Shown here: piece by piece, positions 4,748-45,358 of the stretch
Layout: every line of letters starts with the position of its first letter
Position numbering within the stretch: the first letter of the stretch is position 1
Source: Deltaproteobacteria bacterium
Lineage (GTDB): Bacteria > Desulfobacterota > Desulfarculia > Adiutricales > Adiutricaceae
Assembly (NCBI GenBank): GCA_031264185.1
Contig: JAISEL010000083.1
Location: 1 to 64,000, forward strand
Direction of reading: 5' to 3'
Length of the DNA: 64,000 nt
The notes under the pieces: model-generated
The model's input: only the letters and a program-made list of their open reading frames with translations
The model's database searches: none
Told to the model about the DNA's origin: nothing
Made by a program: the position numbers and the translations under genes

Positions 4748-5899
4748 TTATTGATGTAAACTCGCCGAAAAATCGGCAATTTCTTTAAGAAATACAGGAA
4801 CGTTAATGCTCTGAGGGCAGTGGCTGACGCACTCCCCGCAGGCCACACACTGGTCGGCTCTTTCAGGGACCAGCAGAGATTTTTGGTTATTTTCAAAGAC
4901 CAGATGGGCCGCAACAGGATCGGAGATCGACATTTCTTTATACTGGTTGTAGATGGCAAAATTGGTCGGAATGTCTACACCCTGAGGGCAATCTTCGCAG
5001 TAACGGCAGCTGGTGCAGGGGATGGCGTGAGAGGCCCGGTAGGCTTTGGCCGCTTCCTCTAAGACTTGCCGCTCTTCCTGGCTCAGGGGAGTGAAATTAT
5101 TCATGACTTTTAAATTGTCTTCCAGCTGGTCAAGTTTAGACATACCGCTCAGAACGGTCATGACGCCCGGCAAAGAGGCGGCGTAACGGATTCCCCAGGA
5201 GGCGACGCTGTTGTCAGGAGCGGATTTTTGAAAAATATCCCGGGTTTTGGCGTCCGGGGCAGCCAGAGATCCGCCCCGCAAAGGCTCCATGATCACGACA
5301 GGGATATTTTTAGATTCCAGAAGGCCGTACATTTCCCGGGCTTTTAAGGTATCCCAGTCAATGTAGTTAAGCTGGATTTGTGCAAAATCCCAGTCAAACT
5401 GGTCGGTCAGGGCCTTTAAATGGCTGGGGGAGTCGTGGACAGAAAATCCTAGATGTCTTACTACTCCCTCTTTCTTTTTCTGAAGAAAATAGTCGTACAG
5501 ACCTAAATCCTTCATGACCCGGAAACTTTTCTGGTCAATATTGTGCATAAGGTAGAAGTCAATGTAGTCGGTCCGGCATTTTTCCAGCTGGGTTTTGAAG
5601 ATATTTTCGGCTGTCTCAAAACTGTCCACTTCCCACAAGGGCAGTTTGGTGGCCAGATTATATTTGTTCCGGGGATGACGGGACAGAGCCCGGCCGGCCA
5701 AGACTTCGCTCTGACCTTTGTGGTAGATCCAGGCTGTGTCAAAATAGTTGACTCCGTTTTCCAGGGCCATATCGACCATAGCCTGAGCCAGGGGATAGTC
5801 AATTTCTTCGGTATTGCCGTTTAAGATGGGCAGGCGCATGAGACCAAAACCTAAAAGAGATATTTCTTGCCCAATACTTTTGAAAAGACGTTTTTCCAT
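4748..5899 (-). CDS. Ferredoxin-type aldo/keto reductase (cytoplasmic)
   Basis: 383 residues. Residues 1-~290 form an aldo/keto reductase barrel with the catalytic tetrad visible: D54 and Y59 (YFDTAWIYH), K85 (ATKLP) and H119 (DFYLMHN). The C-terminal ~90 residues carry two cysteine clusters, CTSCRYCEDCPQGVDIP and CVACGECVSHCPQSINVP, so it probably binds [4Fe-4S] clusters and may exchange electrons with ferredoxin as well as NAD(P)H. GGAAGGA precedes the ATG. There is no signal peptide, so it should be cytoplasmic, unlike its paralogue at 17453. It probably heads an operon with the DUF3298 and MORN genes. The substrate is unknown. Confidence 0.92.
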   Translation of the reverse strand: MEKRLFKSIGQEISLLGFGLMRLPILNGNTEEIDYPLAQAMVDMALENGVNYFDTAWIYHKGQSEVLAGRALSRHPRNKYNLATKLPLWEVDSFETAENIFKTQLEKCRTDYIDFYLMHNIDQKSFRVMKDLGLYDYFLQKKKEGVVRHLGFSVHDSPSHLKALTDQFDWDFAQIQLNYIDWDTLKAREMYGLLESKNIPVVIMEPLRGGSLAAPDAKTRDIFQKSAPDNSVASWGIRYAASLPGVMTVLSGMSKLDQLEDNLKVMNNFTPLSQEERQVLEEAAKAYRASHAIPCTSCRYCEDCPQGVDIPTNFAIYNQYKEMSISDPVAAHLVFENNQKSLLVPERADQCVACGECVSHCPQSINVPVFLKEIADFSASLHQ

Positions 5900-13126: not shown

Positions 13127-13879
13127 ATGTCCTTAATCATTGGCATGGCCGGTAAAGGCGGCACCGGCAAAACCACCCTGGCCGGACTGGCCGTCCGTTA
13201 TCTGGCCAAAATCGGGAAAGTGCCTATTTTAGCTGTGGATGCCGATTCCAACGCCAATTTGGCCGATGTTCTGGGTATGACCTACGATCGGACTTTATCC
13301 GAAGCCCGGGAAGAAATGAAATCTTCGGTCGGCAACGTGTCCATTACCAAAGATACCTTAATTGAGTTACGGACCCAGGAAGCTATTGTCGAAGGCGATG
13401 CGTTTGACCTCGTGGTCATGGGACAGCCCGAAGGATCCGGCTGCTACTGCGCGGCTAACTCCATTTTGGCGGCTGTTTTGGATAAAACATTAAAAAATTA
13501 CCCCTACCAGGTCATTGACAATGAAGCCGGCATGGAGCACATCTCCCGCCTGACGGCCCGGTATATGGATATCTTCTATGTGGTGTCCGATGCCTCCCGG
13601 CGGGGTTTTACTGCGGCTGTCCGGATTTGGCGCCTGGTGGACGAGCTGAAGATCACCATTAAGCATAAATATCTGATCTTAAACCGGACCCGGGGAGAGG
13701 TGCCCAGGGAAGTCAAAGATCTGATTAAACAGGAATCCATGGAACTGGCCGGGGTGATTCCGGATGACGACAATATCTACCAGACCGATCAGGCCGGAAA
13801 ACCGACCTCTTTTTTAGATGAAAAATGTCCGGCTGTGGCCCGAACTATGGAGATCTTTCAAAAAACTCTGGTTGAGTAG
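13127..13879 (+). CDS. cooC: CooC-type nickel-insertion ATPase for CO dehydrogenase
   Basis: 250 residues of the MinD/SIMIBI ATPase fold. The deviant Walker A GKGGTGKTT is at residues 9-17, AVDADSNANLADVLG follows, and the C-x-C metal-binding motif (GSGCYCAANS, C106 and C108) characteristic of CooC is present. The family binds Ni(II) at the dimer interface and matures the C-cluster of CODH, the key enzyme of CO oxidation or the Wood-Ljungdahl pathway. No CODH structural gene is in the window. A clear promoter lies upstream. The 3' end carries a tandem GTTGAGTAGT duplication leading into the next gene 12 bp later. Confidence 0.88.
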   Translation: MSLIIGMAGKGGTGKTTLAGLAVRYLAKIGKVPILAVDADSNANLADVLGMTYDRTLSEAREEMKSSVGNVSITKDTLIELRTQEAIVEGDAFDLVVMGQPEGSGCYCAANSILAAVLDKTLKNYPYQVIDNEAGMEHISRLTARYMDIFYVVSDASRRGFTAAVRIWRLVDELKITIKHKYLILNRTRGEVPREVKDLIKQESMELAGVIPDDDNIYQTDQAGKPTSFLDEKCPAVARTMEIFQKTLVE

Positions 13880-17309: not shown

Positions 17310-17452
17310 CGTTAGTTCAGGATTGTCAGGAAATTAAATCATACTGAGTTACGGAGGAGGAACCCTGTTCGCTATACGCATATTGAGACATCGCTCTTAT
17401 CACAGTGGAGCGGCACTCCAAAAACAAGCACTTGGGGTGTAAGGAGTCTGAA

Positions 17453-18877
17453 ATGGATGACAAATCAGCCAAACAAAATGCGGCCAATGCTGAAGCGCCC
17501 GGTCGCGTTTCCCGCCGGACATTTTTAAAAACAGCGGGCATTGGTGTGGTCGGCGCTGCGGCCATCACCACCGGTCTGGTTAAGCTCGGTCAGCAGGAAG
17601 AGTCCGACTTGCCGGAACCTTCGGAAGTAACTCTCCGGGAAAACCCAAAAAACGGAGACATGATCTCAGTTTTGGGTTTCGGTTTCATGCGGTTGCCTTT
17701 TTTGTCTGGATCGTCTGGACCCGCCCCGGCGAACGGCATTATTGACGAAGCAGCCGTGTTCAGAATGGTGGATCGAGCCATTGAGAGCGGGGTCAATTAC
17801 TTTGACACAGCTTATGTGTACCATGGTGGTAAGTCAGAGGTTGTTTTGGCCAGGGCCCTGCAGCGGTACCGGAGAGATAAAATTTTCATCTCCGACAAAA
17901 TGCCTCGGATGGAGCTGGATTTGGCTGGAGCAAAAGAAGTTTTCCAGACTCAGTTAGATCGGCTGCAGACTGATTACATTGACTACTACATGCTCCACAA
18001 CCAGACAACGACTGAGGCATACAAAGCCATGTACGAAGAAAGCGGCATTCTCGACTATCTGCTGGCCGAAAAAGAGGCCGGCCGGATTCGGAATTTGGGC
18101 TGGTCTTTTCACGGCGACAAAGAATGCCTTGAGTATCTTCTTTCCCGACCGGTGGAATGGGATATGGCTTTGCTTCAGTTGAACTATCACGATCTTCTTC
18201 ACGAGTATCAAGCGCCTCCTTATGTGATTGCCAGGACAAGCCAGCCATCGCCGCCAAAATGGAATTATGAACGGATGATGCAAACTGATATTCCGCTGTT
18301 TGTGATGGAGCCGTTGCTGGGCGGCCGTCTGGGCCGGTTGAGCAGAAAAGCGATGGCTGTCCTCAGTCAGGAAAAGCCCCGGGACAGCGCCGCCTCCTGG
18401 GCTTTCCGTTACGCAGCCGGTCTTCCCCATGTCGTGGGTGTTTTGAGCGGGATGACTTATATGGAGCATCTTGACGACAATTTGCGGACATTTGGGCCTT
18501 ACAGTCCTTTGAGTGAGCAGGAAATGACGGTTCTTCAAAACGCCGTGGCCATTTTCGTCTCCCAGGATGTGGTTCGCTGCACCTATTGCAACTACTGTAT
18601 ACCTTGTCCTTACGGAATTGATATTCCGGCTGTGTTCGCCCATTTCAACCGCTATGTAGATGACGAGCAAGTCCCCAAAGGCGAACGAAACGCCGACTAT
18701 GAACAGGCTCGCCGGGCATATTTGGTCGGCTATGACCGGTCTGTGGCGGAATTGAGCCAGGCTCAACGCTGTACCGGTTGCGGTAAATGCGTAAAGTTGT
18801 GTCCACAATGGATTGATATTCCCGCTGAGATGTCAAGATTGGGCCGATTTGCGGAACAGCTGAGAAACGAGGTCTGA
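17453..18877 (+). CDS. Tat-exported ferredoxin-type aldo/keto reductase
   Basis: 474 residues from the ATG at 17453, chosen because AAGGAG ends 6 bp before it; a reading frame from 17405 would add 16 non-conserved residues. A twin-arginine signal SRRTFLKTAGIGVVGAAAIT occupies residues 20-39, predicting folded export with cofactors. The aldo/keto reductase barrel follows with all four catalytic residues: D118 and Y123 (YFDTAYVYH), K149 (SDKMP) and H182 (YYMLHN). The C-terminal region has two cysteine clusters, CTYCNYCIPCPYGIDIP and CTGCGKCVKLCPQWIDIP. The membrane polyferredoxin gene starts 3 bp after the stop, so electrons probably pass between them. NAD(P)H is not available in the periplasm, so a cluster-fed reaction is inferred. 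Confidence 0.9.
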   Translation: MDDKSAKQNAANAEAPGRVSRRTFLKTAGIGVVGAAAITTGLVKLGQQEESDLPEPSEVTLRENPKNGDMISVLGFGFMRLPFLSGSSGPAPANGIIDEAAVFRMVDRAIESGVNYFDTAYVYHGGKSEVVLARALQRYRRDKIFISDKMPRMELDLAGAKEVFQTQLDRLQTDYIDYYMLHNQTTTEAYKAMYEESGILDYLLAEKEAGRIRNLGWSFHGDKECLEYLLSRPVEWDMALLQLNYHDLLHEYQAPPYVIARTSQPSPPKWNYERMMQTDIPLFVMEPLLGGRLGRLSRKAMAVLSQEKPRDSAASWAFRYAAGLPHVVGVLSGMTYMEHLDDNLRTFGPYSPLSEQEMTVLQNAVAIFVSQDVVRCTYCNYCIPCPYGIDIPAVFAHFNRYVDDEQVPKGERNADYEQARRAYLVGYDRSVAELSQAQRCTGCGKCVKLCPQWIDIPAEMSRLGRFAEQLRNEV

Positions 18878-18880
18878 TCC

Positions 18881-20338
18881 ATGCTGAGAAAAATCCGCAC
18901 GGCCGCAGCAATAGTGGTTTTTACCCTGGCCTGCTTCCTTTTTGTCAGCGGGTCTTTGTCAGTTTATTTTACCTGGGTCATTCACGCGCAGCTGGTTCCG
19001 GCGATTTTATCGGGCAGTCTCATAACGGCAGCTCTTCTATTGTCGGTAACAATGCTTTTCGGGCGGCTCTACTGCTCCGTCCTTTGTCCTTTGGGGATCT
19101 TACAGGATATTTTCAGCCGGTTTGGCGCTGCCGGAAGGTTTCAATATTCAAAAGGTAAACCCAGGATGAGACTGGTATTTTTGTTGATTTTTGTTACCAG
19201 TCTGCTAGCAGGGACGCCTATCATTTTTAATTTGCTGGAACCATACAGCGCGTTTGGCCGAATAGCCGCCGCCATTCTCAGCCCGGTTTGGCAGTTGGGC
19301 ATTAACGTCCTTGCCAGAATTGCCGAACATTATGAAAGCTATCTTGTGTCCGCTACCCCTGTCTGGATTAAAGGGGCGGCCTCATTAACCGTGGCTCTTC
19401 TAACCCTGCTAGTTATTGGTTGGCTGTCATACAGAGGCGGGAGAAGTTGGTGTAACACTGTCTGCCCTGTTGGTACGGCGCTGGGATTTCTCAACCGTTA
19501 CGCTCTTATTCACCCCAGAATTAAAAAGGCAGATTGCGTGCATTGCGGTATCTGCGCAAAAAAATGCAAAGCCTCGTGTATTGATTCAAAAAAGGCCTGT
19601 ATTGACGCCAGTCGCTGCGTGGTATGCCTCAATTGCCTTGATGTATGCCCTAAAAAAGCCCTTTCCTACACCGTCCCTAAGTGGCTGAAAACTCCGGGCC
19701 ACCATGTTCATTCTACGACAGAGCTTCTTCGCCGCAATTTTGCTGTTGCGGCGGCCGGAACATTGGCTACCCTTTTATTAAAGCCCGCCAGTGTTTTTCC
19801 GGATTCAGGTGAAGTTGATGCTCTAACGCGTAAACGGCCTTATCGGCGGGCTGTGCCTGTCTTGCCGCCAGGTGCCCATAGTCTAGAGACTTTCAGTGAC
19901 CACTGTACCGGATGCCAGCTGTGCGTCAGTATCTGCCCAAATCAGGTCTTGAGCGTCAGTGGCCAGCTGTTGGAAGCTCCTCAACCCAACTTATCTTTTG
20001 AAAGAGGCTACTGTCGACCTAACTGCGTTGATTGTTCCAATGTGTGCCCAACAGGGGCCATCAGGCCAATAACTCTGCCGGAAAAAAGTGCTCTCCAGAT
20101 AGGCATGGCTGTGGCTGTTCCGGCTAGGTGTCTTTTATCTCAAGGTGAAATATGCGTGGCCTGCAGCCGAAATTGTCCGACTGCAGCCATAGAAAAAATG
20201 GAGGCTAATGACGGGAAGTCGTATCTCACCATTAACACCGAACACTGTACCGGCTGCGGCGCTTGTGAATATTATTGCCCAATCCGCCCTCAGGCCGCAA
20301 TTCAGGTCCGGGGCAATGATGTTCAACGCTTGATTTAG
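18881..20338 (+). CDS. Membrane polyferredoxin (NapH-like plus NapG-like halves)
   Basis: 485 residues. The N-terminal half has four to five membrane segments and the NapH/MauN-type motifs GRLYCSVLCPLGILQD and WCNTVCPVGTALG. Two cytoplasmic-type clusters follow (CVHCGICAKKCKASC and CVVCLNCLDVCP). After another hydrophobic segment near residues 287-305, a second ferredoxin region resembling NapG has CTGCQLCVSICP, CVDCSNVCP, CVACSRNCP and CTGCGACEYYCP. Such proteins move electrons from menaquinol or ferredoxin across the membrane to periplasmic enzymes. The gene lies 3 bp behind the Tat-exported aldo/keto reductase, its likely partner. A terminator stands 26 bp downstream. Confidence 0.88.
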   Translation: MLRKIRTAAAIVVFTLACFLFVSGSLSVYFTWVIHAQLVPAILSGSLITAALLLSVTMLFGRLYCSVLCPLGILQDIFSRFGAAGRFQYSKGKPRMRLVFLLIFVTSLLAGTPIIFNLLEPYSAFGRIAAAILSPVWQLGINVLARIAEHYESYLVSATPVWIKGAASLTVALLTLLVIGWLSYRGGRSWCNTVCPVGTALGFLNRYALIHPRIKKADCVHCGICAKKCKASCIDSKKACIDASRCVVCLNCLDVCPKKALSYTVPKWLKTPGHHVHSTTELLRRNFAVAAAGTLATLLLKPASVFPDSGEVDALTRKRPYRRAVPVLPPGAHSLETFSDHCTGCQLCVSICPNQVLSVSGQLLEAPQPNLSFERGYCRPNCVDCSNVCPTGAIRPITLPEKSALQIGMAVAVPARCLLSQGEICVACSRNCPTAAIEKMEANDGKSYLTINTEHCTGCGACEYYCPIRPQAAIQVRGNDVQRLI

Positions 20339-38523: not shown

Positions 38524-38967
38524 CTACTCTTTGCCCCCAGGTTTTAATAAATCGGACAGCCAGACAGGGATCTTAGTAACTTTGAGTTCTTCGTTGACAA
38601 TAGCGTGGATAGTGTGGCCGGCCACCCGGACTTCATGACTGTCCCCGTGGTACAGGCGGTAATCAAACCGGAAACTGGCCCTTTTAACCTGCGAGATCCA
38701 GGCTTCCACTCTGATTAAATCATCATAGTGGAAAGAGGCGTAATAATGAGCCCACGCCTCAGTCAATGGTGTGCGGATGCCTCTGGCTTCCACTTCTGAG
38801 TACGGCAGCCCCATGGCCCTTAAATATTCACCTCTGGCCTGCTCGAAAAACCGGAAATAATGGCCGTTGTTGACCACCCCCATGAGATCGGTGTCGACGT
38901 AAAGGACCCGGTACCAAGTGGTTATTTTAAAGGTGTCCTGATCCGGGCAAGTCATCGAAATCGTCAC
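38524..38967 (-). CDS. YbgC-type acyl-CoA thioesterase (hot-dog fold)
   Basis: 147 residues. The hot-dog thioesterase signature near residues 22-50 reads YVDTDLMGVVNNGHYFRFFE, with the catalytic Asp of YbgC-like enzymes in DTDLMG. YYASFHYDDLIRVEAWISQV and FRFDYRLYHG follow. Hydrolyses acyl-CoA thioesters; the substrate cannot be told. Its ATG overlaps the end of the apgM gene by 4 bp (ATGA), so the two are translationally coupled. Confidence 0.88.
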   Translation of the reverse strand: MTISMTCPDQDTFKITTWYRVLYVDTDLMGVVNNGHYFRFFEQARGEYLRAMGLPYSEVEARGIRTPLTEAWAHYYASFHYDDLIRVEAWISQVKRASFRFDYRLYHGDSHEVRVAGHTIHAIVNEELKVTKIPVWLSDLLKPGGKE

Positions 38968-40172
38968 AGCGGCCTCTCCGGTCCGAAAATGAATTCCCCT
39001 AAAGTCGGTCCGTCTGGAATGAGACGGCCTGAAGCCAGAGAGTTTTTTTCGGAATAGCCGGCTGTCCCTGAGGCAGCCGGTTTTGTTGAGTCGTAGAAGA
39101 CCATCGGCACCGGATCGTCGGAATGGGTGCGTAATTTCAAAGTCGTAAAGTGATCGCAGGCGGCCATAAGCCGGTAGGGACCCATATCCCTCAGACCTTC
39201 TAAGACCGGTCCAACAATAAGTTTATCAAAATTTTCAATGGCCTTAAGTTTAGCGGCCAGATCTCCCTGATGGGACATCTCGTCAGGAGCTTCCAAATGG
39301 ATGATAACCAGATCTTTTTCTTTTAAGGCTTTAAGTCCGGCCGAAACTTTGCCTTGATAATTGGTGTCCAGAAGACCGGTCGCCCCCGGGACGGTCAAAG
39401 GTTCCAGACCGGAGTAAAGGGCCAGTCCCCGGATAATATCCACCGCCGAGACCGTTGCCCCCGACAAACCCCATTTCTCACGGTAAGTCCGGATTTTGGG
39501 GGCCTGACCCTGACCCCACAGCCAGATGGAGTTGGCCGGAGGCAGATTTTGCGCTCGTCTTTTCTGGTTAACCGGGTGTGTGTCCAAAACAGCCCACGAG
39601 GCCTTAACCAAAGACATTACGGGCTCTAAAGCCTGGTCGTACAGGAATTTTTTGACCGATTGGTCGCGGTAGTCGTGGGGTGGCAGAGAGGGCAGATTTA
39701 AATCAGCGCCATCCGGCCAGACGAGAAGATTCCGGTAGGAAACTCCCTGATGGACAGTCCTGTTTTTTAAAGGCAGGTTTTTAGTCAGAGCCTCAAGAAG
39801 TTCGGCCGCTTCCGGGCTGGTGATGTCGCCGGCTGCGTGATTGCGCATGATGATATCGTCACCTAAGTCCAAAGTGACCAGATTGAGCCGGAAAGCTGAA
39901 TCCCCCGGATTGAGCGGAATGTTCAAAGCCGCAGCTTCCAAAGGTCCCCGGCCGGTCAGAACGCCTTTGGGGTTGTAGCCCATTAAAGTCATAATGGCCA
40001 CATCCGAACCCGGGGACAGACCTTCCGGCGTAGTGCGGACCCGGGCGATTAAACCCTCTTTAGCCAGACGGTCTAAGTTGGGGGTGGAGGCTTTTTCAAT
40101 GGGGGTCAGACCGCCTAAAGCCTCAATGGGATAATCACCCATGCCATCGCCGATTAAAATAATATATTTCAT
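38964..40172 (-). CDS. apgM: Cofactor-independent phosphoglycerate mutase, archaeal type
   Basis: 402 residues. Interconverts 3- and 2-phosphoglycerate in glycolysis or gluconeogenesis. The N-terminus MKYIILIGDGMGDYPIEALG holds metal ligands. The catalytic serine region GLSPGSDVAIMTLMGYNP lies near residue 55. Later: GPLEAAA, NPGDSAFRLNLVTL, HLEAPDEMSHQGD and the C-terminal DHFTTLKLRTHSDDPVP (metal ligands). ApgM-type enzymes occur in archaea and many Desulfobacterota. It is the upstream gene of a pair with the thioesterase. Confidence 0.93.
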   Translation of the reverse strand: MKYIILIGDGMGDYPIEALGGLTPIEKASTPNLDRLAKEGLIARVRTTPEGLSPGSDVAIMTLMGYNPKGVLTGRGPLEAAALNIPLNPGDSAFRLNLVTLDLGDDIIMRNHAAGDITSPEAAELLEALTKNLPLKNRTVHQGVSYRNLLVWPDGADLNLPSLPPHDYRDQSVKKFLYDQALEPVMSLVKASWAVLDTHPVNQKRRAQNLPPANSIWLWGQGQAPKIRTYREKWGLSGATVSAVDIIRGLALYSGLEPLTVPGATGLLDTNYQGKVSAGLKALKEKDLVIIHLEAPDEMSHQGDLAAKLKAIENFDKLIVGPVLEGLRDMGPYRLMAACDHFTTLKLRTHSDDPVPMVFYDSTKPAASGTAGYSEKNSLASGRLIPDGPTLGEFIFGPERPL

Positions 40173-41223: not shown

Positions 41224-42522
41224 TCAGGGATTTAAGACTTCCGGAATACCCCGCGGGCAGGCCGCCAGGCACTCCAGCCGGCAGTCCTTATGCATAAGGC
41301 AGGCCGGTTGATTGAGAGAAGGAGGGCCGAACTCTCTTTTGGTCAAAGCTTTGGCCGGACAGGCTTTGGCGCAGCGGCCGCATCCCAAGCAGGCCCTCTG
41401 GCATAAATCGGCCATGACTTTTAGTTTCTTTCTCCCCCGGCAGGGAATTATGGCTTTTAACGCCTTTGGTCTTAGAATTAGAAGTTCCTGGGGGCAAGCG
41501 GTTAAACATTGTCCGCAGCCCCGGCAAGCAGCCGGGTCAATTCTGGGGGCGCTCTGGCAGTCTATAATGATGGCTTCATAAGGGCAGGCCCGGGCGCAGT
41601 CGCCCCAGCCCAGACAGCCTGCGGCGCAGGCCAGGGAAGATACGGCTAAGGCACAAGTTTTGGGCGGCGGCAGTTCCCCCAAAGTGTCGACCCGGCCAGA
41701 TTCCCGCCGGCAAAGACGATGGGCTGTAAAATCCGGTCGTTGGATCATACCGGCCCGGAAGGCTTCGGTATTTTTGTCATCCGCAAAAGTCGGACATGGC
41801 TGGGGGCCTTTTTTTATGGGCCAAAAAGCGTTCAGGCCCCAGACAGTAATACCCAAAGCCAAAGTTAACGGACTGCCCGCTAAAGCCAGAAAGCCTGCCA
41901 GAAGAGCCGATAAAAACGATCGCCGGTCAAAAGGCCTTCGGGGTCCTAAAAAAAAGAGGATAACCCAAAAAGTGATGTTTCGGTTTAGATGCCAAAGCCC
42001 TGGTTCCGCTGCCCAGACCAGATAAAGAATTATAAGGCCGGCTGCGTTTTTTATTTTTACTCGGCCCGACAGAATTAAAATCATGGCCCCGGGCAGAAGA
42101 GCTAATGGGCTGTAACTGGGTGGGGATGTTAAAAACATAAGCCCCAGTAATGCCCCCAAAAGGCCGGGTGCTTTAATTAAGCCAGGGCCGGCGGCTGCAG
42201 CCGCTCCGCCCAGACCGGCGGCTCCGGCCGCCCACAGGTTGCCCGGACCGATTACAGCCAGAGCGGCCAGAGTGGCCGCCGGAGCATCCAAGTCCCGCCA
42301 GGGTGTTTTTTCCTGGGATTTTGGGCCAATTCGGGCGAGAATCCAAAAGCCCAGAAAAGCTAGGCCTAAGGACAGCGGCAGCCACAGGCCGGGCCCGGCA
42401 ATGAACCAGTAAGCGATTAAAGGACCTAAAGATAAAATAATTTCCAGGTTATAGCTTCTAAAAGAACATTTTTTAAAAGCATAGGGTCCAAGTTTAATAG
42501 ATAAGGTTGGTTGGCGGGTCAT
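41224..42522 (-). CDS. RnfD-like membrane domain fused to an RnfB-like polyferredoxin
   Basis: 432 residues from the ATG at 42522, which overlaps the rnfC stop as ATGA; a longer frame to 42579 would overlap rnfC by 61 bp. Residues ~1-250 hold seven or so membrane segments. Their start (SIKLGPYAFKKCSFRSYNLE and then IILSLGPLIAYWF) resembles RnfD, but the S-x-A-T-P flavin-attachment motif is not seen. Residues ~275-432 are a ferredoxin region: CAAGCLGWGDCARACP, an RnfB hallmark, then CRGCGQCLTACP, CLGCGRCAKACP and CRLECLAACP. RnfB's N-terminal C-G-x-C-G cluster is absent. With rnfC it would form a membrane ferredoxin:NAD-like electron path. RnfA, E and G are not adjacent. Confidence 0.75.
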   Translation of the reverse strand: MTRQPTLSIKLGPYAFKKCSFRSYNLEIILSLGPLIAYWFIAGPGLWLPLSLGLAFLGFWILARIGPKSQEKTPWRDLDAPAATLAALAVIGPGNLWAAGAAGLGGAAAAAGPGLIKAPGLLGALLGLMFLTSPPSYSPLALLPGAMILILSGRVKIKNAAGLIILYLVWAAEPGLWHLNRNITFWVILFFLGPRRPFDRRSFLSALLAGFLALAGSPLTLALGITVWGLNAFWPIKKGPQPCPTFADDKNTEAFRAGMIQRPDFTAHRLCRRESGRVDTLGELPPPKTCALAVSSLACAAGCLGWGDCARACPYEAIIIDCQSAPRIDPAACRGCGQCLTACPQELLILRPKALKAIIPCRGRKKLKVMADLCQRACLGCGRCAKACPAKALTKREFGPPSLNQPACLMHKDCRLECLAACPRGIPEVLNP

Positions 42523-43607
42523 GGAACAGGTGAGGTCAGGACCCTTAAAGGCCGGTTGGCCGGACAGGCCAGGGAGCACTGGCCGCAGTCGGGGCAGGAT
42601 ATTAAGATCTCTCTGGCCGGACTTATAAGGTCCGGCCAGGATGAAAGGGGCTTGTCCGTCAAACTGTCAATTGGCAAATTTAAAGGACAGACCCGCCGGC
42701 AAGAACCGCAGCGCCGGCAGGGACCGGGCCGGGGACCTAAAAAACGGGCCCGGACGAGGTGAACAGAAATTACCTCCGGTCCTAAACCGTCGTCTAAGCG
42801 GGCTGTGGGCCGGCCTCTACGCAAACCGCCTAAAACGACTGCGTCACCGGCCAGAGGTTCCAGGCTGACGGTCTTTAAGATATCCCGGGGTCTTAAGCCG
42901 GGAGGCACCAGATAGTTCTGGGTCTGGACCGTCATAGGCCACAGTCCCGGAGGACGGCCCTGCCGTCTAGTCTGGCCCAATAAATAAACAGTCCGGCTGT
43001 CAAAAAAAGCTTTAGGGGTCAGCTCATATTCGAACCCCAGCACAGTTTTTAAGAAAGGCGGCAGAGTATAGGGATAAGGGTTGGAGACTAACCGTGATTT
43101 ATAGTTTTCCGGGCAGATAAGTTCAGGGGGGCGGGCTATTAAAAGGTCATTGTCAGGGTAGAGGTTTTTAACGGTCTCTAAGCCGTCGGCCATAATCTGG
43201 GGCCATTCGGACCATAAAACCCCGGCTAGGCCCAAATCGGGTTCTGGATCTAAGCCTGAGATAACCACTTTTTCGCCCGGCCGGGGATTAGGCGGCAATT
43301 TTAGGCCCAGATCCAGTAAAGCTTCTTTTAAGTCCGGCCCTTTTAGGGAGGTTATGTCCAGTGCAGGCGGAGGCGCGGCTGTGCCGGCCGAACCGGGAAC
43401 CAGGGTCACAAATCCCGGCTCTAAGGCAGTAATTTCTCCGGCCGCGGGCGCCCGGAGGTGCCCGACCAGCGGTTTCCGGCTTCTGGCCAAAAGCTGTCCG
43501 TAAGCTACGTTTTTTCCCGGTTTAAGACCTTTTTCCGGAATTTTAGAGTCCAAGGGCAGATGAAGTTCCCCCGGCTGAGGCCAGGCTTTTAAGACTTCCC
43601 GGGCCAC
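42519..43607 (-). CDS. rnfC: RnfC-like NADH/ferredoxin-binding subunit
   Basis: 362 residues, shorter than classical RnfC (~440). The start LPLDSKIPEKGLKPGKNVAY then GQLLARSRKPLVGHLRAPAA and GEITALEPGFVTL is the RnfC barrel-sandwich region. The central part, an SLBB-flanked flavin/NADH-type domain in the family, is diverged and I cannot confirm a nucleotide-binding motif. Two [4Fe-4S] clusters close the protein: CRRCGSCRRVCPLNLP (~residue 297) and CPDCGQCSLACPANRPL (~residue 338), as in RnfC. The MFS gene ends 4 bp upstream and the fusion gene overlaps its end, so all three form one transcription unit. Confidence 0.82.
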   Translation of the reverse strand: MAREVLKAWPQPGELHLPLDSKIPEKGLKPGKNVAYGQLLARSRKPLVGHLRAPAAGEITALEPGFVTLVPGSAGTAAPPPALDITSLKGPDLKEALLDLGLKLPPNPRPGEKVVISGLDPEPDLGLAGVLWSEWPQIMADGLETVKNLYPDNDLLIARPPELICPENYKSRLVSNPYPYTLPPFLKTVLGFEYELTPKAFFDSRTVYLLGQTRRQGRPPGLWPMTVQTQNYLVPPGLRPRDILKTVSLEPLAGDAVVLGGLRRGRPTARLDDGLGPEVISVHLVRARFLGPRPGPCRRCGSCRRVCPLNLPIDSLTDKPLSSWPDLISPAREILISCPDCGQCSLACPANRPLRVLTSPVP

Positions 43608-43611
43608 TGTT

Positions 43612-44817
43612 TTAATGCCCCTGTCTTTTTCGGCCGGCCGAAGAGTAGCAAGTGAAATAAAGAGCCAGAAAAATGATCATAAACACGGCAGCCAGCAGGT
43701 AAACCACTTCAAATGTCTTAAAGTAACCGGCGAAAAAGCCCATGAACATGGTGCCCAGACCTATGCCGATGTCAAAGGCGTTGTAGAAGTAGGCCGAGGC
43801 TCCGGTCCGGTAGGCCATGGGCACGGAACTTAAGGTTAAAGCCTGGATAGACGGAAAAAGCGAACCCACGCCAAGTCCGTAAATAATGGCCGCCAGATAG
43901 TAGATCCCCGGAGTGAGGGCCTCGTAGACCAAAAATATTGAAGCTGTAATGAGCAGTATGGACGGCGGAATGACTGTGAAGTGACCGTAACGGTCATAGA
44001 TCCGGCCGCTCGTCACCCGTGAGACCAGAGTGCCGACTGTGGAGACCACAAAGAAATGGGCCGCCGGGGGCAGGTTCTTTTCATGGCAGTAAACGGCTAA
44101 ATAGGCCGAGACAGCGCAGATAGCCATACCGTAAATACAGGTCAGAAAAGACGGGGTTAAGGCCTTTTTCAGGGCCTTAAAGACACTGAAAAAAGATTCC
44201 GCACCTCTGTCCGCTGCGGCTAAAGTAACTTTCGGCAGGGTCAGACTGATGAGCGTGGCCAGGATATAGCACAGGGCCACTGAGGAAAAGAGGACCGAGT
44301 AACCCTGTCTTTCAGCCAGATTAAGTCCCGCCAGAGGCCCTATGGCCAGAGCCACGGTGGCTCCCAGACCCAGATAACCCAATCCTTCGCCCAGCCGGGA
44401 GGGCGGTATATTTTGGGCCGCCATGGAGACCATTAGGGTGGAAGTAAAACCGTAGCCTGCGCCGAACATGAGTCTGGCCAGCACATAACTCATGGTCTTG
44501 GGGAAGACAAAAAACATAAATGCGCCTAAGCAGCACAGCAAAAGGCCGCATTTTAAGATCTTTAAGGCTCCGAAGCGCTGGCTTAACCGGCCGGTCCACA
44601 ACCTGCTTGTTACCGAGGAGACGGCAAAGGAGGCAAAAATAAGCCCTATGACTTCCTCTGGACAGCCCTGAGCGACCAGGTACAGAGACAAAGTCGGCAG
44701 AAGCATGTCAAAGCCCATAAAGATACACAGGTTAATGAGCAGATACGTCAGAAAGGTCAGGGTCCACAGAGGCGGCGGGCCGGAACTGACCCTCTGATCC
44801 GACGGACCGGGGGGCAT
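43612..44817 (-). CDS. Major facilitator superfamily transporter
   Basis: 401 residues from the ATG at 44817, chosen for AAGGAG about 6 bp upstream; a frame to 44910 would add 31 polar residues. Twelve membrane segments. The MFS motif A region is RLWTGRLSQRFGALKILKCG (residues ~65-85), repeated in the second half as RVTSGRIYDRYGHFTVIPPS. It resembles sugar- or drug-efflux MFS proteins; the substrate is unknown. It is the first gene of a run with rnfC and the Rnf fusion, an unusual pairing. Confidence 0.88.
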   Translation of the reverse strand: MPPGPSDQRVSSGPPPLWTLTFLTYLLINLCIFMGFDMLLPTLSLYLVAQGCPEEVIGLIFASFAVSSVTSRLWTGRLSQRFGALKILKCGLLLCCLGAFMFFVFPKTMSYVLARLMFGAGYGFTSTLMVSMAAQNIPPSRLGEGLGYLGLGATVALAIGPLAGLNLAERQGYSVLFSSVALCYILATLISLTLPKVTLAAADRGAESFFSVFKALKKALTPSFLTCIYGMAICAVSAYLAVYCHEKNLPPAAHFFVVSTVGTLVSRVTSGRIYDRYGHFTVIPPSILLITASIFLVYEALTPGIYYLAAIIYGLGVGSLFPSIQALTLSSVPMAYRTGASAYFYNAFDIGIGLGTMFMGFFAGYFKTFEVVYLLAAVFMIIFLALYFTCYSSAGRKRQGH

Positions 44818-45358
44818 GGTCAGCTCCTTAATGGGGCGGGTTGTAGCCCCAGGCCGAAGCCTCTGGGACTGATATTTTGTCTCAACTGAAAAATCATGAT
44901 CCAAAGCCAAAAAACGTAATGATTCCCGAAGGCTAAAAAATCGGGGCCGGATTGAGCTCAGGGGAGCACAGGTCAGTCAATTCTATAAATTTAAGATTTT
45001 TACATAAGTTTAGGATTATTTCCACCCGGCCAAACTGTGGCCAGCAATTCTGATTTTGGCCGATGAGCCACTGCAGAGGGCCCATTTAGCTAAGACCGGC
45101 GCACTTAAAATTTTTCAAAAATCTTTTCAGTACAACCTCAGTAATCTTCAGAACCGGCGTTTGCCAAAAAATTACTTATTAAATTTGTCTATATTTATCG
45201 CATACAATAATTTCAAAAATAAATTATAAATAGTATTTTATTATATATTTATATTAATTTATAATATTTTATTAAATATATTTTATTTAACATTATAATA
45301 AATATATAATACATTTATTTTTGTTTATTAAAAATATTTTTTTGTAATAATAAATCAT
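44818..45358. other. Intergenic, becoming extremely AT-rich
   Basis: The 44940-45180 part is mixed. From 45180 to 45358 the sequence is almost all A and T. No gene seen. Confidence 0.4.

Follow-up and report, generated by a model that had tools for sequence, protein, structure and literature searches.

Two overlapping genes in the 64,000-nucleotide stretch of Adiutricaceae DNA analysed here (the window) encode an RnfC-like protein and a fusion of an RnfD-like membrane half with an RnfB-type polyferredoxin half. The pair is probably what is left of a cytochrome-linked Rnf complex, retained as a ferredoxin-linked Fe-S relay without a pump; we assign this reading a probability of roughly 0.55. 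Five [4Fe-4S] ligand sets are retained in the RnfB-like half and two in the RnfC-like protein, together with the arm motif of RnfD. The losses comprise RnfA/E with their [2Fe-2S] cluster and RnfG, and also the RnfD linker for FMN, the FMN loop of RnfC and the mobile first cluster of RnfB. Nothing that takes electrons through the membrane or on to NADH is left. The pair points to a device that could transfer electrons with no pump, no flavins and no NADH site. The open literature searched contains no account of a unit of this kind, and an earlier mention is possible.

As the preliminary description of this DNA had it, both open reading frames lie on the minus strand (Table 1) and are coupled through an ATGA at 42522-42519, which constitutes a 4-base overlap of the RnfC-like and fusion genes. 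The fusion is most likely translated from the ATG of this overlap, because the start context M..xLSIxLGPY is common to its relatives. The two-gene unit originally proposed is real, but it forms part of a larger one, as an MFS transporter gene located 4 bases upstream of the RnfC-like gene heads the same operon. The very long fusion ORFs of GC-rich relatives were rejected as real extensions, being partly read-through of the overlapping RnfC frame. Neighbours of the module in several genera, at a distance of about 1 kb, are the genes for a thioesterase-like protein and for a cofactor-independent phosphoglycerate mutase (window 38524-40172); their synteny is conserved and their spacing is not operon-like.

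Table 1. Positions of the RnfC-like/fusion module and its parts in the window.
Feature	Position	Strand	Basis
MFS transporter (DHA1/NorA-like)	43612..44910	-	PF07690, E 1.1e-46; NorA, E 3.8e-11
RnfC-like protein, 362 aa: barrel-sandwich, degenerate NuoF-like domain without FMN loop, SLBB region, two [4Fe-4S] clusters	42519..43607	-	TIGR01945, profile, AlphaFold2 model
Place of the deleted FMN loop in the RnfC-like protein (about residues 101-112; G-x-G-G-A-x-F-P in RnfC proteins)	43272..43307	-	Alignments
Two [4Fe-4S] motifs of the RnfC-like protein	42564..42719	-	Cys 297, 300, 303, 307, 338, 341, 344, 348
Fusion protein, 432 aa from the most likely start, ATG 42522: RnfD-like membrane half and RnfB-type polyferredoxin half	41224..42522	-	
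N-terminal arm and first helix of the fusion (residues 1-42), equivalent of the RnfD arm	42397..42522	-	BLASTP, hhalign
Rest of the membrane half (about residues 43-240), RnfD-like fold	41803..42396	-	Foldseek, alignment, motif scan
RnfB-type polyferredoxin half, 20 conserved Cys for five [4Fe-4S]	41224..41730	-	Profile, Cys conservation, Foldseek

The C-terminal part of the RnfC-like protein (residues 230-354) matches TIGR01945 (rnfC) with an E-value of 1.4e-12, and the RnfC_N domain is matched weakly. The profile of the family aligns with C. tetanomorphum RnfC (7zc6_C) over almost the full length (E 1.4e-31), and a Foldseek search with the AlphaFold2 model (pLDDT 93.5) revealed RnfC structures as the best matches, with a TM value of 0.84. 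All eight cluster cysteines are invariant in 24 sequences. No match to PF01512, the FMN/NADH domain, was detected in the protein, and the FMN loop is missing in all 24 family members aligned.

The fusion matches the long-RnfB model PRK07118.1-2 with an E-value of 1.4e-30 (residues 283-445, counted in the longer ORF) as well as 4Fe-4S families. In profile comparisons its ferredoxin half corresponds to RnfB of A. woodii (9eri_B, E 2.9e-41) and of C. tetanomorphum (7zc6_B, E 9.8e-35), and 9eri_B is also matched by Foldseek with an E-value of 2e-7. The three ferredoxin motifs pointed out previously (CLGWGDC, CRGCGQC and CLGCGRC) are all present. Exactly 20 cysteines of the fusion are conserved in 24 relatives, with one substitution in one sequence, while Cys 19, 243 and 322 of the window fusion are not conserved. 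PF04060, which represents the N-terminal single-cluster domain of RnfB that reduces RnfA/E, has no match in the fusion, and no conserved cysteine precedes residue 271; the domain of the mobile first cluster is thus absent. In one relative (G020, L061:2881-4893), the fusion carries a linker of about 250 amino acids, made of repeated LTSDQLASNG and QPNPDQLASD units, between the halves, and the fusion relatives of genus g4 display long disordered N-terminal extensions.

The AlphaFold2 model of the fusion (pLDDT 78.6, moderate confidence) contains about ten helices in its first half. The top Foldseek match of this membrane half is A. woodii RnfD (9eri_D), with a probability of 0.99 and an E-value of 0.068. 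BLASTP relates the arm to RnfD of a class relative (E 8e-5), and hhalign aligns the membrane half to true RnfD over the first ~118 columns with a value of 2.6e-4, or 3.7e-5 for the genus alone; controls with reversed RnfD and MFS profiles gave 0.05 or worse. One subset of relatives (g3), taken alone, has no hhalign match to RnfD. The membrane half therefore appears to descend from RnfD, to which its resemblance is weak beyond the first ~100 residues. No other family was matched, and assignment of the membrane half to a different family was discarded. The proposed architecture, RnfC next to an RnfD-like/RnfB-like fusion, is consequently borne out by the profile and fold matches of each half. 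The covalent-FMN motif of RnfD, S/T-x-A-T-P-L, was not found in the membrane half; a motif scan and the alignment to true RnfD indicate that the FMN-attachment linker is deleted and that the riboflavin-site residues are lost, in agreement with the missing flavin-attachment motif noted before.

The only invariant columns of the membrane half are G12, P13 and P34. The arm motif reads G-P-Y/F in the fusion versus S-P-H in RnfD, and in the C. tetanomorphum structure the N-terminal arm of RnfD is buried inside RnfC (PMC9588780). The fusion of Smac51 is only 232 aa long and has no transmembrane segment, yet it keeps D-G-P-F and all cluster cysteines. Because Smac51 preserves both elements in the absence of a transmembrane part, it gives the strongest indication that the working pieces would be the arm and the clusters rather than the membrane part. 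The designation "membrane oxidoreductase" given in the preliminary description is, accordingly, not valid in general for its first word, and the second is questionable as well, since no substrate site or flavin is left in the pair.

Conservation of the cysteines also bears on whether the pair has a redox function. The membrane half evolves rapidly and has disappeared in Smac51, as might be expected for a slowly decaying pseudo-module or for a non-redox remnant with a structural or regulatory role. The latter would resemble NqrA of Na+-NQR, an RnfC-fold protein kept as a scaffold without any cofactors (PMC12174285, PMC4014512). The RnfC-like protein shares with NqrA the absence of FMN and of the NADH site. 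NqrA, by contrast, sits in a six-subunit pump and has also lost its Fe-S clusters along with the cluster cysteines, whereas in the pair the clusters are the conserved part: all of their cysteines stay while the rest of both proteins diverges to 24-43% mean column identity. A non-redox remnant is, in our judgement, improbable. A decayed duplicate of a complete rnf operon was rejected, because virtually all relatives retain the 28 cluster cysteines (five plus two [4Fe-4S]); moreover, no rnf operon was found elsewhere in the genome. Chance occurrence is excluded by the conservation of the 20 + 8 cysteines and by the presence of the RnfC-like protein in 33 of the 37 Adiutricaceae genomes.

Nearly all of these 37 genomes also encode the fusion, or at least its ferredoxin half. 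The carriers include Ca. Adiutrix intracellularis (LQAA01), the closed genome of Smac51 (CP026657) and many termite-gut MAGs. The RnfC-like/fusion pair is thus a trait of the family Adiutricaceae, which are putative acetogens of termite guts (PMC9137090).

The genome to which the window belongs has 4.40 Mb in 166 contigs and is 97% complete. That no RnfA, E or G gene is adjacent to the pair had been noticed already, and the genome-wide search extends this result: RnfA/E (PF02508), RnfD (PF03116) and RnfG (PF04205) have no match in this genome, while the same Pfam models do match in control genomes. RnfA/E and RnfG are equally absent from the 36 other Adiutricaceae genomes, as is RnfD, for which no match to PF03116 exceeded the cut-off. 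Within the order, the full rnf set is present in only one sister-family genome, and RnfD in a second. An ordinary Rnf whose other subunits are encoded by unassembled or very divergent genes could be envisaged, given that most of the genomes are incomplete bins and that the RnfD remnant of the fusion itself escapes the Pfam model. Nevertheless, RnfA/E/G are without a match in all 37 genomes, including the closed one of Smac51, and the losses are concerted, because RnfB no longer has the domain that passes electrons on to RnfA/E, and the FMN linker is gone from RnfD. We therefore consider an ordinary Rnf highly unlikely, as was anticipated in the preliminary description.

A scan of genome contigs with a single RnfC-like sequence gave no match, and an alignment-based scan then found the family. 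The latter scan suggested a restriction to Adiutricaceae, but its pattern was narrow, and the search was repeated as a scan of the phylum Desulfobacterota; the distribution beyond this phylum was covered by one pattern-limited scan. In the phylum scan, the full-length RnfC-like relatives outside the family all belong to complete rnf operons. They occur in four genomes of one genus (g86), where each operon encodes a decaheme cytochrome and RnfCDGEAB in the Desulfovibrio-type order. A maximum-likelihood tree of 74 RnfC sequences (Desulfobacterota sample; unrooted, drawn midpoint-rooted) places the 24 family proteins in one clade (100/100) beside the four g86 RnfC (100/99), and the deletion of the FMN loop is common to both groups. 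The pair thus most likely derives from a cytochrome-linked rnf operon of the Desulfovibrio type. Its description as distinct from Rnf is partly correct: several of the defining features of Rnf that were tested fail, and hence we name the pair Rnf-derived instead of Rnf, but the RnfC tree speaks against a separate invention.

RnfC lacks the FMN loop in 38 of the 50 sampled Desulfobacterota rnf operons. A protein with three or more CxxCH motifs is encoded alongside in 29 of these 38 operons, and in none of the 12 operons with the loop. Because the loss of the flavin is common in Desulfobacterota RnfC and is shared with g86, it most likely predates the Adiutricaceae; it was for this reason dropped as the distinguishing novelty of the pair. 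The steps that belong to the Adiutricaceae are the loss of RnfA, RnfE, RnfG and the cytochrome, the fusion of RnfD to a shortened RnfB, and the operon with the MFS gene. None of the ORFs between 36 and 49 kb of the window encodes a protein with several CxxCH motifs. Most RnfD proteins of the loop-less Desulfobacterota operons are devoid of the FMN threonine motif, and their RnfG keeps the SGAT motif. The Rnf of Desulfovibrio is called a ferredoxin:NADH oxidoreductase in the literature (PMC4215793), a label that may need re-testing.

The pair and the cytochrome-linked Rnf (dhcA-rnfCDGEAB) both have an RnfC without the FMN loop but with two [4Fe-4S] clusters, an RnfD without the FMN threonine motif and the same RnfB polyferredoxin, and their RnfC proteins are sisters in the tree. 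The cytochrome-linked complex, which is regarded as an ion pump, differs in having the cytochrome, RnfG, RnfE, RnfA, a separate RnfD and an RnfB with the mobile first cluster. With the canonical Rnf of A. woodii (9eri), C. tetanomorphum (7zc6) and A. vinelandii (8ahx) the pair has in common the RnfC fold and clusters, the RnfB polyferredoxin and the RnfD-like arm. By contrast, the NADH/FMN site, the covalent FMN and RnfA/E/G are missing from the pair, in which RnfD and RnfB are fused. None of the components known to make Rnf a redox-driven ion pump is present.

In Rnf, electrons travel from ferredoxin to RnfB, and through its mobile first cluster, RnfA/E, RnfG, the flavins of RnfD and the clusters of RnfC to FMN and NAD (PMC9588780, PMC11889175). 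In the pump-less relay that we favour, reduced ferredoxin would dock on the RnfB-like half as it does in Rnf, and the arm would hold the RnfC-like protein against this half. Single electrons could then pass through the clusters to a redox partner docked on the RnfC-like side, with the membrane half serving as an anchor only, neither forming an ion channel nor contributing to pumping. The nearest cofactors of RnfB and RnfC are 25 to >30 Å apart in the known Rnf structures, and direct transfer between them is held to be unlikely (PMC9588780, PMC11889175). Because of this separation, a path from the RnfB-like to the RnfC-like clusters would require a rearrangement or a bridging partner. A more specific proposal, which we put forward tentatively, is that the seven clusters form a flavin-free and pump-free relay between an RnfB-type polyferredoxin and an RnfC-type protein that drives transport-linked or acetogenic reduction in the Adiutricaceae. 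If this were true, electrons would pass between RnfB and RnfC, which is not considered possible in the intact complex.

The co-transcribed MFS gene suggests a role for the electrons in a process linked to the substrate of this transporter. In most of the linked genomes the gap between the MFS and RnfC-like genes is -8 to +7 bases, and the MFS gene is the first of the operon in most genera. A narrower form of the pump-less relay is a transport-coupled reductase, in which ferredoxin electrons would reduce the MFS cargo, for instance a metal chelate, a corrinoid or a quinone-like compound. The MFS gene abuts or overlaps the RnfC-like gene in ~14 genomes of several genera and occurs in tandem copies in genus g4. 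A close MFS homologue is missing from three genomes that do not have the pair (G014, G019 and G032). The MFS is likewise missing from the sister families f2 and f3. A further apparent absence of the pair, in G034, was discounted as an exception, as the locus ends at a contig edge. This co-absence is supportive only, because neighbouring genes may be lost jointly from incomplete bins. In the genus Adiutrix, however, the MFS gene is found elsewhere in the genome, and the transporter has a NorA-like efflux fold, so that a transport-coupled reductase is a minority option for us. A flavoredoxin-like gene beside a second MFS paralogue of the same genome was considered as a redox link and rejected, as it is not conserved in other genomes.

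Alternatively, the pair might exchange electrons with a soluble enzyme of acetogenesis, such as an Hdr-type methylene-THF reductase, for which it might provide the second acceptor, with the membrane half as a loose anchor. PduS and PrdC are stand-alone RnfC-like adaptors. Another, RnfC2, belongs to type III methylene-THF reductases (PMC8760232) and resembles the RnfC-like protein in being an electron adaptor outside Rnf. In addition, the Adiutricaceae are putative acetogens (PMC9137090), and metVF/mvhD/hdrABC are reported for Ca. Adiutrix (PMC7325909). RnfC2, however, works through an NADH site and partners MetVF, whereas the RnfC-like protein has no such site and partners a ferredoxin-membrane fusion. 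Furthermore, no gene for an acetogenesis enzyme of this kind is adjacent in the loci examined; the signature of type III methylene-THF reductases is absent, with neither metV nor metF among the neighbours (MFS, phosphoglycerate mutase and thioesterase genes) and no FMN loop. We regard this exchange as rather unlikely, and less so than a non-redox remnant.

Other redox genes were noted in the same DNA. Two aldo/keto reductases with C-terminal ferredoxin motifs, one of which has a Tat-type signal and is followed by a gene for a NapH-like membrane polyferredoxin, add further unusual ferredoxin-linked proteins (window 4748-5899, 17405-18877 and 18881-20338). A gene for a CooC-like nickel-insertion ATPase (window 13127-13879) fits an acetogen with CODH/acetyl-CoA synthase. 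The complex I operon (C3, L173:965-12049 in the same genome; L175 in Smac51) looks like an 11-subunit type, consisting of NuoA-D and H-N with no NuoE/F/G alongside, and one NuoH is present in nearly every Adiutricaceae genome.

Rnf is normally treated as an all-or-nothing pump of six subunits. The Adiutricaceae have kept only the cytoplasmic clusters and the docking arm, which isolates the role of the RnfC and RnfB clusters from pumping and from NADH. The same question of their role arises for the many Rnf complexes of sulfate reducers in which RnfC is without the FMN loop and keeps both clusters. The finding also bears on energy conservation in these putative acetogens of termite guts, which do without an Rnf pump and possess an 11-subunit Nuo-like complex.
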